DNA from: a virus
Virus record (IMG/VR): IMGVR_UViG_3300008218_000032
Coordinates: 1 to 30,602 of that record
Length of the DNA stretch: 30,602 nt
Reading direction: 5' to 3' (one strand)
Position 1 is the first letter of the stretch; the number at the start of each line of letters is the position of its first letter. Shown piece by piece: positions 5,589 to 30,386 of this stretch. The position numbers were made by a program, and so were the translations under genes. The notes beneath the pieces were generated by a model. It did no database searches. It was not told where the DNA came from and was given only the letters and a program-made list of their open reading frames with translations.

Positions 5589-8500
5589 TTATGGCTCTTC
5601 TACCTCAATCCTTCCACCAAAGTATACTTCCTCTGTTTGGAATTTGGGATCTATCTCTCGCAAAATATCCTCAAACCCGGCCTTGCCTACCCATTCCCTC
5701 AAGTACGCAAGGAACCCGCCAACGGCTAGACGTGCAGAGGTGAGGTAGAGCCCCGGCTCCGCGTCCGTCGCATCGTCAGACTTGACTATCCAGCCGGCAT
5801 CCGCAAGTGGTTTGAGTTTATCAAACGCATCGATGTAGTACATCATCTCAGGGCCAGGCTCTCTGGTCTGACCAGCGGTGATCGTATTGCTGAGACCCTC
5901 CATGTCAGCGTAGTATCCCTTGAGGGCCTCTGCGATGTGCTGCTGTGACCGGAGCCTTCGAGAGGCAGCGACCTCACCCCATGTATGCGGACTGCCCTCG
6001 AACATAGGCTCGTGACTCTTTTCATCCATTATGCTGTAGGCCGGGAGCCTCGGGAGGCCAAATTGCTTCGCCGTTTCATCATCCGCATCCTCTTTGGCGA
6101 CGTGCATCTTATTGAAGTTATGCCGCACGTCTACAAGTGCGCTCCGCTGCATCCCTTGCGGCTCCAGCGTCATACCAGCCGTCTTTGCCCACTTCGCCAT
6201 CCCCGGAATGTTCTCGCCCCAGATATCCATCACCCTTGTGATTGTCGGCGGCACAGCCTGCTCTTTCCCAATGTGCAAGAGCACCCTGCCCAGTGTAATC
6301 TCATCCCCATCAAAATATCTTTTCGAGAGCTCCCTTCTCGTCCGGGGGCTCTTCTCAGTTAACCACTGCAACGCTCGGCTTATTTGACCTGGCATCCAGT
6401 TGTCCTGCGGGTCGAACGTAAACCCTGTTGCAGCCTCCAGCAACAGACTGGCCAGACCCACGTCATCTTCATCACCTCTCTGCCCAAGGAACGACTTGAG
6501 GGTAAACGGCTGAAGCCAGCCGACATTGACCCCAGTCCACCAGACATCCTCGGGGGCACCGGAGGCGCCAAACTTGGCCTTGATGGTCCATGGCGTTGCC
6601 ATATACCGCAGGCGCCAAGACATAGGCGAATTGCTCCTGATTGCCCGCCACTCATCTTCAGAGACGCCGGCCTGGGAAACAGACAGTGCCGTCAGATAGT
6701 CCCAGGTGTTCATCATGGCGGCTATCGTCACAGCCTGGACCGGGTTGTCTAAATTCCGCTTCAAGCCCCTAGCGGCCTGTACACCATAGCGCATAAATGG
6801 AGTGACAACGCCGACCGGAGATAGGAAGTGGGCTGTGGACAGCCTGCTCGGGTAAGGAGATGAGAGGAAGTTTACTGCCATTGGGGCATGAGCATAGTTC
6901 TGGCTTATCTCTCGCCCGTCCAGCGAGGCCTGGAACATGTCGGTCCTGGTCTTGCCGCCCCTGTGGTGATCCGGCATGTACGACTTGAAGAACTTCGCGG
7001 CCCGGTAGAGCTGATCGTTAAAGCCATATATGGCATTAGGTAAGTCAGACATGACAGCATGCAGCGCCAACGCCCCTTTGTTTCGTTTGCTGATCCTGCT
7101 CATCAAGTGGTAGGGGAAGGTGTGCATGTTGGTAAAGATGCGCCGAGTGTCACTAAAGTTCTTCCCGTAGATGATGTCGTAGAAGGAGACCCGCGCGTTG
7201 ACCATCAGGTCGGTGCGAGAGAAGTCGCCGCTCAGGGTTTGGCTCTCAAGCAATAGCTTACCCATTGGGCTGTGGGGGTTTGCCATCGCCTGACGGGCAA
7301 GTCCAAGGTAGTGCTGGCCCTCTTTGGTCATTGGATTTACGCCATACATCGGCCCGTGATACAGCCATTGGGTCACATAGTTACGGAAGGCAACTGGCAA
7401 GTTATAGACAGTGCGTAGGCGCTTCCACCACACCACCGTCTTGGGTAGAAGCTTTCTGGCGTACTCGTTGAACTTATGCTCCCAGACCCAGATGCGCTGT
7501 ATATCTCCCCGAACATACTTCCCGGCCAGCCCGCCGAACACATTGATAGTAGTGCCGGGGTATTTCATGTCTGGCATGATCTCATAGCCGGCAGCCCTGG
7601 CCGATTTGGCATCGGGAAAGAAGCTGGCCTCTCGCCATACGCCTGGGAACTGTTTCATTATCTGGCGGAACGCCTTGTGTCTGTTGACGAGGTTTTCAAG
7701 CGAGGCCAGGTCCGCCACCATCATGCGGTCAAACGACACCGGGTCTGTTATAAGGCCGCGCTCTATTTTTGAAATCTCCTTGGGGATACCCATCCGCTTG
7801 TCCCAGTTCGGCATCATCTGACCTGCGGCCTTAGCATGCGCTGCTATATCTTGCGCTGCACCATTGCGCTCAGACCTTAGCAGAGCAAAGTATTCCTTCG
7901 TGTCAATCCGGCCCTCCTTCAGGTCGCGAGTGAGTTCTAAAATGCGGTTTCTCAACTGCACCGTCCGGTCATAGGACTGGGGCATCGCATAGTTGGTTAG
8001 ATTCGCCGGGTTGTCCGCCAAACCTTCGGCCACTACGCCGTCATGGACCATCTGGAACCGGTCTGCAAGTGGACGCGCTGACACATCGCGGTTGAGGAAG
8101 TCAACAACCTGCTCAACGTGTCGCAGCAGAAGGGGTGAAAACTCTGACGCGACGGTGCGGAAGTTTGAGTCAACCTCATAGCGTTTGTGGAGGGGGTTAT
8201 ACCGGTAGCCTGAAACAGCATCATGCACCACCGGAACGACTGGTCCGGTGTACTCAGATGATGTGCGAACCCCTATCTTCCCTGGGCTCAGGCTATCGCT
8301 GTATGTCTTTATGCGAGACGGGTCCAGGGCAGGCATGACCTCAATATCTGGCTTCGGCACATCAATCTTAATCGGCTTGCCTTTTGCGTCATAGGTAACT
8401 TTCTCGCGGCCGGTGACGTGAGGATATGTCTCCCGAACCGTAGTCTCCTGCTTGGGGGTCAGCCTGAACTTCTTTTTGCGCTCTCCCTCATAGTGCTCCC

Positions 8501-27548: not shown

Positions 27549-27752
27549 TTATTGACTCCTATCGTCAGCGTATACTTTCTCGAAATCTACCTTATGTTGA
27601 CTGTCGAACACTTCCCAGTTGCTGTCGTGCTCAACTTGCATCCGCCGGCGCTCCATTTCAAACAACCGATAGGCCCCATAGGCCAGAAAAGACGCAATAA
27701 TCGTCAGCAGGAAGAGAATGAGGATCCCAACGGTAGCCATTAGTATTTGCAT
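27549..27752 (-). CDS. Small single-span membrane protein in the head gene cluster
   Basis: A 67-residue protein with one strong transmembrane helix (LMATVGILILFLLTIIASFL, about 4-23), then a charged cytoplasmic or periplasmic tail (RLFEMERRRMQVEHDSNWEV). The ATG at 27752 overlaps the terminase stop as TAATG, with GGGAA upstream. A TTG six bases further up also fits the frame but has no better signal. It is distant from the endolysin cluster; a second holin-like or spanin-like function, or a membrane-anchored packaging accessory, are both possible. Nothing in the sequence decides between them. Confidence 0.7.
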   Translation of the reverse strand: MQILMATVGILILFLLTIIASFLAYGAYRLFEMERRRMQVEHDSNWEVFDSQHKVDFEKVYADDRSQ

Positions 27753-29503
27753 TACCAATTGTTCCCAAGATGAGGATCCAGTCTCTCTTCAGGTTGGTTC
27801 TTCAATAGTCTAGCCACCGAGTTTCGCGAGTATTCCCTTTTAGGGGATGCCACGCTATGAGTGTTAACATCTCCATACTCTTTGTCAACATATATGGCAA
27901 TGGCACATGCCATCACCGCATCATCATGACTTCCGGGCAGAGCCTCCGGTTTGCCGCCCTGATTATAGATAAACGTAAGACATTCCTTGAGAAATCGCTT
28001 TGAGTAGAACCGGCATGAGCCTATCCGAATAGCAGTAGCTAATTCTGAGATAGAAGAGGCGCGAGACTGCTGACTGGTTTTCCATCCCCACGCCTGCGTC
28101 CAGGCCGTAGAGTTCGAGCGGCGATAGATGTCCGGGTAGTCATCGAGCAACAGCCGCAGCAAAGCCAGCCCCGGTCCATCTACTTCAGGCACCAGCAGCG
28201 CATTATTATAAAGCCGGCCAGCGGACATAGTCTGTTCAGCCAAAACATCAGGCGGCATCTTCGCATAGTATTCAGCCACCTGTTCTTTGTCCGTCCGGTC
28301 AAACACCTGTATGCAGGCATAGTCTCCTTCAATAATACCAGCGGCAGCATCGATCGCGATTATATATTCATGCCCCTCAACCGGTTCTTTGTAAATCTCC
28401 CACTCATCCCCACCACGTATCCGGCGAAAGTCACTGCCAAACATCATGAACTTATCCACAGGTTCGGGAGAAGAAGCGATGAGGTCTGTGATTTGAGTGG
28501 AGTCAAATACACTACCACCAGAAGACTGGAAACTGATTTGCCAGGAGAGCGGGTATTCGGTATCGAACCGCCGGATGTCGCCGCCGAACTTTGTGGCCAT
28601 CGTGCGATGTGCCCACCGAACCTGACAAGGCTCCAGGCTAAACTCCTTCATCCGCTCCTGCCAGGTCGCGTTGAATCCGAACTCATCCATGATAGAGGCG
28701 GTGAAGTCTTCGTCGCCCAGCGTCCAGGCTGCGCGGAGTTGCTCCATTAGGCTCTCGTCTTTCTCCAGCGGTTCGAGGCGATACTTGTCATGGTCCTGCC
28801 AGCCAAAGAACATGGGCTTGAATAGATTACCCGGCGAGTCATCTACTGCCGCTTTCCACCTGTCGTAAAATGCGCCCCTGGGTCCGTTGGCCGTCGACTC
28901 AATGATGACGTAGGTTCCGGGCTCATCCTCAATAGAGCCAAAGGTGGACTGGAGGACATCCTCAGCAGAGGTGGTCTGCCGATTGCGGTCCCACAATCCG
29001 AGCTCGGAGAGATGAAGAAAAGACGGGGTGGAGCCCCGAGCCGCATCGGTCGAGCCCTGAGTCATCACCTCCAGGATGGAGCCGTGTTTGAACTTGACCA
29101 GATTCTTCAGCGACCGCGACGGTGCGATGGATGCCAAGCCGGGGTGCATATTGTCATGGTAGCGTTTGGTGATTTCAAAGATACGCTCCGTCGCTCCCTG
29201 AAGGTGTGCTACAACAATCGCATGGGCGTTGCGGTTAAACATGCAGTAATGATACGCCAGCCCCTCGATGAGGGTGGAGATGCCTACTTTCCGCGACTTA
29301 TCGATGATGATGCGGACCGGCCTTCCGGCGTATTCCATATCTTCTATAGCGACAAGGGTCTCATCTTGTTCTCGGTTGAGGATGAGGGGTTCCAGTTTAT
29401 ACTGCCCATCGACTAGGGTTCGTATTCGCAGAAACTCCGAGAAGAAAAACCGGCGGTCCTCTTTCGCCCGAAACCACAGCTCCTCGGCGTTACGCTCTTC
29501 CAC
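27752..29503 (-). CDS. Terminase large subunit (ATPase-nuclease)
   Basis: A 583-residue DNA-packaging motor that translocates genome DNA into the prohead through the portal and cuts it. The ATPase domain has a Walker A variant SRKVGIST (70-77), Walker B FLHLSE (162-167, catalytic E167) and a coupling motif IIESTANGP (200-208). The RNase H-like nuclease domain follows, with D385 in IIAIDAAAG, E440 in LVPEVDGPG and D527/D528 in GSHDDAVMA, the expected acidic triad. Length and domain order are normal. The start is GTG at 29503 with GGAG seven bases upstream; it overlaps the preceding gene by 14 bases, implying coupled translation. Confidence 0.95.
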   Translation of the reverse strand: MEERNAEELWFRAKEDRRFFFSEFLRIRTLVDGQYKLEPLILNREQDETLVAIEDMEYAGRPVRIIIDKSRKVGISTLIEGLAYHYCMFNRNAHAIVVAHLQGATERIFEITKRYHDNMHPGLASIAPSRSLKNLVKFKHGSILEVMTQGSTDAARGSTPSFLHLSELGLWDRNRQTTSAEDVLQSTFGSIEDEPGTYVIIESTANGPRGAFYDRWKAAVDDSPGNLFKPMFFGWQDHDKYRLEPLEKDESLMEQLRAAWTLGDEDFTASIMDEFGFNATWQERMKEFSLEPCQVRWAHRTMATKFGGDIRRFDTEYPLSWQISFQSSGGSVFDSTQITDLIASSPEPVDKFMMFGSDFRRIRGGDEWEIYKEPVEGHEYIIAIDAAAGIIEGDYACIQVFDRTDKEQVAEYYAKMPPDVLAEQTMSAGRLYNNALLVPEVDGPGLALLRLLLDDYPDIYRRSNSTAWTQAWGWKTSQQSRASSISELATAIRIGSCRFYSKRFLKECLTFIYNQGGKPEALPGSHDDAVMACAIAIYVDKEYGDVNTHSVASPKREYSRNSVARLLKNQPEERLDPHLGNNW

Positions 29504-29906
29504 GACGAGTCTCCGTCTCCGTCTTGACGGCGGTCAGCTTATCTTTGGCCATAGCATTGGCGTACTGCTTGTTGACGGGCGATTCGCCCCAGGGGTCAAA
29601 CGATGATTTGCCGCCGGCACTTTTCTCCAGCATCTCACCTATCTTGCGGCGGACCGTCACATAGGATTCCACCGAGCGCAGCGCCGCCCGAAGCTCGCGT
29701 GGGTCTTCATTGAAGTTAGCCACCGCCCAATGGAGCATCTGTTCGCTCCCCAGAGCGGCCCCCTCGTAATAGTCGGACACCGAATCGGACTTCACCATAT
29801 CCGGCATGGGGATCGGGAATGGAGAACCCATGGGCTTGGCAACCCCGACCGACTTGGCTATGTTAGGATTGTCTTTTACTTTTCTCTCTTTAGGAGCCTT
29901 AGCCAT
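29490..29906 (-). CDS. First gene of the leftward operon, candidate terminase small subunit
   Basis: A 138-residue protein beginning MAKAPKERKVKDNPNIAKS. The N-terminal 45 residues are basic and Pro-rich; the middle (about 55-105) is helical (LGSEQMLHWAVANFNEDPRE, then LRAALRSVESYVTVRRK). Immediately upstream of and overlapping the large terminase, it occupies the place of a small terminase subunit, which recognises packaging sites, but I see no clear helix-turn-helix. The frame remains open up to 30326; I use the ATG at 29906 because GGAGGG (29918-29913) lies six bases before it and because the upstream part is antisense to the plus-strand gene. Its ATG overlaps the ATG of that divergent gene. 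Confidence 0.82.
   Translation of the reverse strand: MAKAPKERKVKDNPNIAKSVGVAKPMGSPFPIPMPDMVKSDSVSDYYEGAALGSEQMLHWAVANFNEDPRELRAALRSVESYVTVRRKIGEMLEKSAGGKSSFDPWGESPVNKQYANAMAKDKLTAVKTETETRRGRA
29836..29864 (+). promoter_or_regulatory. Candidate rightward promoter for the ribbon-helix-helix gene
   Basis: TTGGCA (29836-29841, five of six to the -35 consensus), a 17-base spacer, then TATGTT (29859-29864, four of six to the -10 consensus). Transcription would begin near 29871, giving a short leader that contains AGGAG (29892-29896). It lies entirely inside the coding sequence of the leftward first gene. Found by eye. Confidence 0.4.
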
Positions 29907-29918
29907 GAAAAACCCTCC
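29892..29918. promoter_or_regulatory. Overlapping divergent translation starts with interlocked Shine-Dalgarno sites
   Basis: The tetranucleotide CATG at 29904-29907 supplies a plus-strand ATG (29905-29907) and a minus-strand ATG (29906-29904). AGGAG at 29892-29896 lies eight bases before the plus start and within the minus gene. GGAGGG at 29918-29913 lies six bases before the minus start and within the plus gene. Both sites are strong, which is my main evidence that both genes are real and that longer in-frame extensions are not used. Confidence 0.75.
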
Positions 29919-30330
29919 AGTCAGTATCAACATCGATGACCTGTGCCATACACTTCTATCTAAAGTCTCGGACCGAGCAGGCGTCTCTGTCAAGCAACTC
30001 GTTAGCCTGGCCGTCGAAGCCGGCATCAATAGTCTGCTGAAAAGACTGCCCACTACCCCAAACCACTTCGGCGGCAACGACATTAAACGCACCTGCCCAA
30101 CAGGAAACAAGAAGGTTATGCTCGATAAAAGCCTGTGGCAAACCGTCAGAGACTGCTGCGGAGCTCTCGAAATCCCACCACAGGACTTCCTCAGAGACTG
30201 TATCCTCGCACAGAAAGCTAACTTCGATAGACTACATCCAGTCAACGCAAGGAACTTTAGCTCCGCCAGGATCAGACTCTTCCAGCTAGAGAACCACAAA
30301 CGCCCCATGCAGGCCGGCAACAACAACTGA
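29905..30330 (+). CDS. Tandem ribbon-helix-helix-like DNA-binding protein
   Basis: The only plus-strand gene, 141 residues. Residues about 5-46 (PVSINIDDLCHTLLSKVSDR, then AGVSVKQLVSLAVEAGI) and about 69-104 (KKVMLDKSLWQTVRDCCGAL, then EIPPQDFLRDCILAQK) each show a short polar strand, a helix, a turn and a second helix. That is the Arc/MetJ ribbon-helix-helix pattern, twice in one chain. Such folds normally dimerise to bind DNA with paired strands; two in tandem could make an internal pseudo-dimer. The frame is open upstream to 29806, but the ATG at 29905 has AGGAG at eight bases. Divergent from, and overlapping the start of, the packaging operon, it is well placed to repress or time late transcription. 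Fold assignment is by eye. Confidence 0.8.
   Translation: MKNPPVSINIDDLCHTLLSKVSDRAGVSVKQLVSLAVEAGINSLLKRLPTTPNHFGGNDIKRTCPTGNKKVMLDKSLWQTVRDCCGALEIPPQDFLRDCILAQKANFDRLHPVNARNFSSARIRLFQLENHKRPMQAGNNN
30082..30110 (-). promoter_or_regulatory. Candidate leftward promoter for the structural operon
   Basis: Reading leftward, TTGTTT (30110-30105, a weak three of six to the -35 consensus), a 17-base spacer, then TTTAAT (30087-30082, five of six to the -10 consensus). Transcription would begin near 30075, leaving a leader of about 170 bases before the start at 29906 that is antisense to the ribbon-helix-helix gene. A phage-specific promoter further right (30387-30602) is equally possible. Confidence 0.25.
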
Positions 30331-30334
30331 AGAG

Positions 30335-30386
30335 AACCGGGCTGACAGAACTGACAAAACTGACAGAATGGCCTAATCGGTTTTTT
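30335..30386 (+). terminator. Weak candidate terminator after the ribbon-helix-helix gene
   Basis: AACCG (30335-30339) can pair with CGGTT (30378-30382), extended by GGC (30340-30342) with GCC (30371-30373) across a four-base bulge, and a T-run reaches 30386. The loop of 28 bases holds most of the 9-bp repeats. The T-run favours a terminator; the long loop and short stem argue against it. Confidence 0.25.
30342..30368. repeat. Three tandem 9-bp direct repeats (CTGACARAA)
   Basis: CTGACAGAA (30342-30350), CTGACAAAA (30351-30359) and CTGACAGAA (30360-30368) follow each other without spacers, differing at one base. They start 11 bases after the ribbon-helix-helix stop codon. Possible roles are an operator array for that protein, iterons for replication start, or a packaging-site recognition element. 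The sequence does not decide. Confidence 0.8.

Follow-up and report, generated by a model that had tools for sequence, protein, structure and literature searches.

Overlapping back-to-back start codons of a ribbon-helix-helix gene and a packaging operon, and the spacing of the same junction in related phages

Introduction

The window analysed here (the whole stretch of DNA, 30,602 bases, from a linear IMG/VR virus entry) carries leftward genes for a large terminase, a portal, a major capsid protein and further products; its left end holds a primase/helicase-like gene. At its right end, a 138-amino-acid (aa) gene (29906-29490) opens the leftward operon and adjoins the large terminase gene, and a 141-aa gene (29905-30330) runs in the opposite direction. 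How are two genes expressed when their start codons occupy the same four bases? The original prediction for this locus was that transcripts antisense to each other over both ribosome binding sites (RBSs) could enforce mutually exclusive expression of a regulator, encoded by the plus-strand ribbon-helix-helix (RHH) gene, and the packaging genes.

Anatomy of the junction

The junction and the genes on either side of it comprise the following features:

29904-29907, both strands: CATG containing both start codons (plus ATG 29905-29907, minus ATG 29906-29904); sequence TTTAGGAGCCTTAGCCATGAAAAACCCTCCAGTC
29892-29896, plus strand: Shine-Dalgarno (SD) sequence AGGAG of the RHH gene, within the putative small terminase coding sequence; spacer 8 nt; duplex -6.5 kcal/mol
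29913-29918, minus strand: SD sequence GGAGGG of the putative small terminase gene, within the RHH coding sequence; spacer 6 nt; duplex -9.8 kcal/mol
29905-30330, plus strand: tandem RHH protein gene (P0001), 141 aa, identified from its open reading frame (ORF), homologues and AlphaFold2 fold
29490-29906, minus strand: putative small terminase subunit (TerS) gene (P0002), 138 aa, directly upstream of the large terminase gene; homologues 27-44% identical
27752-29503, minus strand: large terminase subunit (TerL) gene (P0003), 583 aa; phrog_2 terminase large subunit, E 2e-22; relatives 44-72% identical

Direct reading of 29904-29907 confirms that both start codons lie on one CATG, with a coding overlap of 2 bp (29905-29906, where the plus coding sequence 29905-30330 meets the minus coding sequence 29906-29490). 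Each SD is indeed located inside the other gene. Because a duplex energy of -6 is reached by approximately 16% of all ATGs in the window, we regard the minus SD as strong and the plus SD, also described originally as strong, as only fair. When the 146 CATGs of the window were compared by anti-SD duplex energy, the two-sided SD at 29904-29907 was first by its weaker side among the matches listed. Since each SD is inside the opposite gene, the minimal mRNAs of both genes must share 29892-29918: if both RBSs are used, the window's two transcripts are bound to be antisense to each other over at least 27 nt, and to this extent the predicted antisense relationship across both RBSs holds.

An SD-CATG-SD motif by itself is weak evidence for a gene pair, as chance alone produces it in viral DNA. 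When IMG/VR was scanned for the bare motif AGGAGG-CATG-CCTCCT, 80 sites were assessed. Six of these open ORFs of at least 60 aa in both directions, which is no more than among ordinary CATGs of that DNA (12%), and none of these six two-way sites looks like a convincing gene pair. We judge both genes of the window to be real because homologues exist for both proteins. Sequence comparison also supports both start positions: in most members of the RHH family the chosen ATG sits shortly before the first strand, and the similarity of the putative TerS to its counterparts in relatives L015 and L016 (VGVA...P) starts upstream of 29831, the next possible start. It is very improbable that the minus gene begins elsewhere (for example, at ATG 29933 or 29831), which would leave the CATG to the plus gene alone. 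The open minus frame does extend as far upstream as 30326, and the N-terminus is shorter in most relatives, but the SD energy is -9.8 at 29906 versus -3.9 at 29933 and -5.7 at 29831, in-frame ATG, GTG and TTG codons are absent between 29906 and 29831, and the L015/L016 homology extends upstream of 29831. The arrangement of overlapping back-to-back starts in the window is thus both real and unusual.

The description of the leftward operon as a packaging operon is borne out by the TerL, portal and major capsid genes. P0002 matches no known TerS family in either Pfam or PHROG, and its assignment as TerS is therefore made from its position; its homologues in relatives likewise lie upstream of TerL. 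P0002 and TerL overlap by 14 nt, and neighbouring operon genes in the window likewise overlap by a few bases. The putative TerS proteins of several relatives (L017, L018, L021, L022, L026 and L027) end in a helix-turn-helix-like segment, VELYKAGLSYKEIIDKTGLSRRQVEKAIKKAG, that is missing from those of the window, L015 and L016.

The ribbon-helix-helix protein

P0001 has homologues with 21-48% identity in eight other sequences of set A5. No curated RHH family was recovered in Pfam for P0001, for the eight relatives scanned or for the RHH alignment, and P0001 has no PHROG match. An AlphaFold2 model built with nine aligned sequences (mean pLDDT 80) predicts two strand-helix-helix units in a single chain (E6-10 H12-25 H29-45 and E69-73 H75-88 H92-102). 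The best Foldseek/VIA matches to this model are F plasmid relaxosome chains (Z 8.3), which we take, by fold, to be TraY; the model also matches permuted single-chain Arc (1u9p; Z 6.5), DndE and the archaeal viral regulator AvtR. The predicted fold and its structural matches bear out the original call of an RHH protein, with two units rather than one. TraY and single-chain Arc resemble P0001 in having two RHH units per chain, but are only approximately 12-15% identical to it, and P0001 has a conserved C-terminal stretch, NFQRMQPVNARxMxSVR.

A regulatory role for P0001 is suggested by its fold and its position. In the distant relatives L080-L082, whose TerL proteins are 44-45% identical, the RHH homologue is co-directional with the late genes, directly behind the portal gene (around 5983-6405), so the protein does not have to be separated from late genes, and it may belong to a packaging or head module rather than being an opposing regulator.

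Three 9-bp direct repeats, CTGACAGAA CTGACAAAA CTGACAGAA, are found just past the RHH stop codon (30342-30368, plus strand); nowhere else on the plus strand of the window do three TGAC fall within 36 nt. Similar repeats lie past the RHH stop codon in L071-L073, and copies are found inside the RHH coding region of L077/L078. These repeats may serve as binding sites for the RHH protein or as a packaging signal.

Conservation of the junction in relatives

Searches of GenBank phage records matched neither the DNA around the junction nor the proteins P0001 and P0002, so only IMG/VR relatives, gathered by deeper TerL and RHH searches, could be used. A scan of GTDB genomes returned a single distant TerL match, and one more TerL search, using the branch of the window, added no new members. 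The head-to-head pair is present in 18 junctions: the window, its nearest relative with a junction (L063, on the same contig as L013 and L015) and 16 others. Because these relatives fall into few clades, counts of junctions given here are not counts of independent events.

The pair is kept, and the shared CATG is not: it occurs in none of the 17 other junctions. It is absent from all 16 of the further head-to-head junctions, in which the gap between the two starts is 17 nt (ten junctions), 18 nt (five) or 19 nt (one). In L063 a CATG is present with its minus ATG out of frame, and the best in-frame TerS start is a TTG (SD -8.2 kcal/mol), giving an inferred overlap of 6 bp. The overlapping-start state is thus represented by two junctions, those of the window and L063. 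These two are joined in the TerL tree with 100/98 support, followed by L016, whose sequence (L003/L016) ends before the junction. Midpoint rooting of the tree and the long branch of L025 make the direction of change uncertain. Two substitutions separate the window from a near-identical contig (L012/L014) over the stretch compared; as both fall outside the junction, this contig tells us nothing about constraint. In L025 (1288-1878 and 1840 onwards) no TerS gene was seen between the RHH gene and TerL, which are divergent with starts 34 nt apart.

Start-codon spacing and promoter-like elements

A gap of 17 nt corresponds to 18 bp between the initial bases of the two start codons. Counted from these bases, positions -11 and -7 are A and T, respectively, on both strands of all ten gap-17 junctions, and this pattern recurs in three unlike sequence groups (TATTCT/TATTGT, TACTAT and TAATCT). 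Bacterial bidirectional promoters, as described in a Salmonella start-site study, typically initiate at sites separated by 18 bp, with reciprocal pairing of positions -7 and -11 (PMC10268837). The terminase starts of the ten gap-17 junctions are all without an SD, and nine of the ten RHH starts have an SD of -3.8 kcal/mol or weaker (the exception being L026, with a fair SD of -6.1). In the gap-18/19 group (n=6), an SD (-6.8 to -10.9) precedes the RHH start, and no SD precedes the TerS start. Four of these six junctions contain the box AGGAGAATA, which reads as an SD in one direction and, in the other, as TATTCT located six bases ahead of the terminase ATG; a variant of this box occurs in L075, and L022 has none and also lacks T-7 on the TerS strand. 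A TATAAT match scoring at least 4.5 lies just before the RHH start in 12 of the 14 non-overlapping junctions scored for it, compared to 14% of 147 control starts (other ORF starts in the same loci). In the junctions of L066, L067 and L074, a TGTCA-N12-TGACA inverted repeat is centred on the spacer, and may be an operator or a coincidence with the start codons.

In the window and L063, both starts are preceded by an SD and the symmetric -10 box is missing: in the window, positions -12 to -7 read GGAGCC and GGAGGG, with no -11A/-7T box. Two candidate promoters lie nearby instead, scored by sigma70 rules that may not apply to the phage's host:

29836-29864, plus strand: candidate sigma70-type promoter of the RHH gene, TTGGCA-17-TATGTT; start at approximately 29871, inside the putative TerS gene
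29957-29993, minus strand: weak candidate promoter of the packaging operon, TTGACA-18-GAGACT; start at approximately 29957, inside the RHH gene

The plus candidate was found by a consensus scan, and in a weight-matrix scan it had the top score on either strand between 29650 and 30150. The minus candidate comes from the weight-matrix scan and was not found by the stricter consensus scan; other minus candidates start near 30075 and 30106. The best plus and nearest minus candidates face each other, with a predicted overlap of approximately 87 nt. No convincing inverted-repeat operator was found at the window's junction.

Interpretation of the junction

The 17-19-base spacing of the relatives suggests a compact two-way promoter rather than an antisense switch. 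Our overall account, to which we give an even chance, is a conserved head-to-head junction that serves as a bidirectional promoter in most relatives and carries nested SD-led starts in the window's branch. In most relatives, the spacer would hold a single near-symmetric -10 box read both ways, and transcription would begin at or next to the start codons, leaving one or both mRNAs leaderless. In most of the family, the balance between the packaging operon and the RHH gene would then be set by the choice of RNA polymerase at the shared -10. The spacer promoter may have been lost in the window's branch, where the starts came to share 2 bp (6 bp in the sister L063), presumably as a derived state. 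As both window genes are SD-led with overlapping starts, the promoter of each has to be within the opposite gene, or beyond it. Expression would probably be balanced mainly at the DNA level, by competing or face-to-face polymerases, and binding of the RHH protein near the junction could add to this balance through autoregulation. The RNA overlap would be a by-product of SD-led overlapping starts, although it may add some interference. We hold slightly less firmly, at a little under even, the more specific proposal of a minimal two-way switch with a single symmetric -10 box for both strands, transcription from the two start codons at a distance of 18 bp and two leaderless mRNAs, with other branches having one SD-led gene (through the box AGGAGAATA) or two with overlapping starts.

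That the shared CATG and nested RBSs make regulator and packaging expression mutually exclusive, in the manner of an excludon, now appears improbable. The window itself would allow it: if both RBSs are used, the two mRNAs overlap by at least 27 nt across both sites, the candidate promoters face each other with an overlap of approximately 87 nt, and mutual inhibition by divergent overlapping transcripts is known from excludons. The arrangement is not conserved, however. Clearly separated starts, 17-19 nt apart, were found in 16 junctions, ten of which appear leaderless on both strands, and even the sister junction in L063 uses a TTG start with a 6-bp overlap in place of the shared CATG. If both mRNAs are leaderless, separated starts leave no antisense RNA over the start-codon regions. 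Mutual exclusion by antisense overlap therefore cannot be the general mechanism of the family, and its enforcement, as originally proposed, is unsupported. The RHH homologue of L080-L082, which lies within the late operon, also argues against it, and both genes could stay active despite a short 5' overlap. We consider neutral compaction unlikely, though less so than exclusion by antisense RNA. By this reading, start codons shifted in a dense phage genome without regulatory meaning, and ordinary promoters and factors set the timing; the spacing does vary by branch (-6, -2, 17, 18 and 19 nt, and 34 nt in L025), adjacent operon genes overlap by a few bases as well, and symmetric SD-CATG-SD motifs turn up by chance in viral DNA. 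The recurrence of 17-nt spacing with reciprocal A-11/T-7 in three unlike groups argues instead for constraint outside the window's branch. If neutral compaction is nevertheless true, the junction of the window is a minor curiosity.

Under a bidirectional promoter with branch-specific translation signals, the relatives form an apparent natural series for one divergent gene pair: two leaderless genes, one leaderless and one SD-led gene, and two SD-led genes with overlapping starts. This series makes it possible to test how promoters and translation signals share a few bases, and whether a 5' antisense overlap has any effect in compact phages.

Comparison with known systems

Excludons are defined in the literature as divergent overlapping transcripts with mutual inhibition. 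The window resembles them in having divergent genes whose 5' transcript ends are necessarily antisense if both RBSs are used; it differs in that the overlap is predicted from sequence, where an excludon is recognised by its transcripts and their mutual effect, and in that the window's relatives would have no overlap. Short divergent overlaps in compact genomes likewise involve start codons that overlap by a few bases, but in the window the SD of each gene lies within its partner, and the junction is conserved with a series of spacings. In some restriction-modification control regions (PMC5333194), as in the window, the gene for a small DNA-binding protein is divergent from an effector gene: EcoRV has a divergent control region with overlapping polymerase sites, and AhdI has a leaderless C transcript. 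The proteins are unrelated to those of the window, and the two features occur in separate examples (the AhdI genes are convergent and the EcoRV C transcript is not leaderless). Compared to bacterial bidirectional promoters (PMC10268837, PMC12825309), the gap-17 relatives match both the 18-bp spacing and the near-symmetric -10, if transcription starts on the start codons; they differ in that the predicted start sites are the start codons of two protein genes, and the window itself differs in having no such box. Short divergent overlaps, bidirectional promoters, leaderless mRNAs, excludons and divergent control regions are each already known singly; what is new is their combination, together with a series of spacings, at one conserved gene pair.
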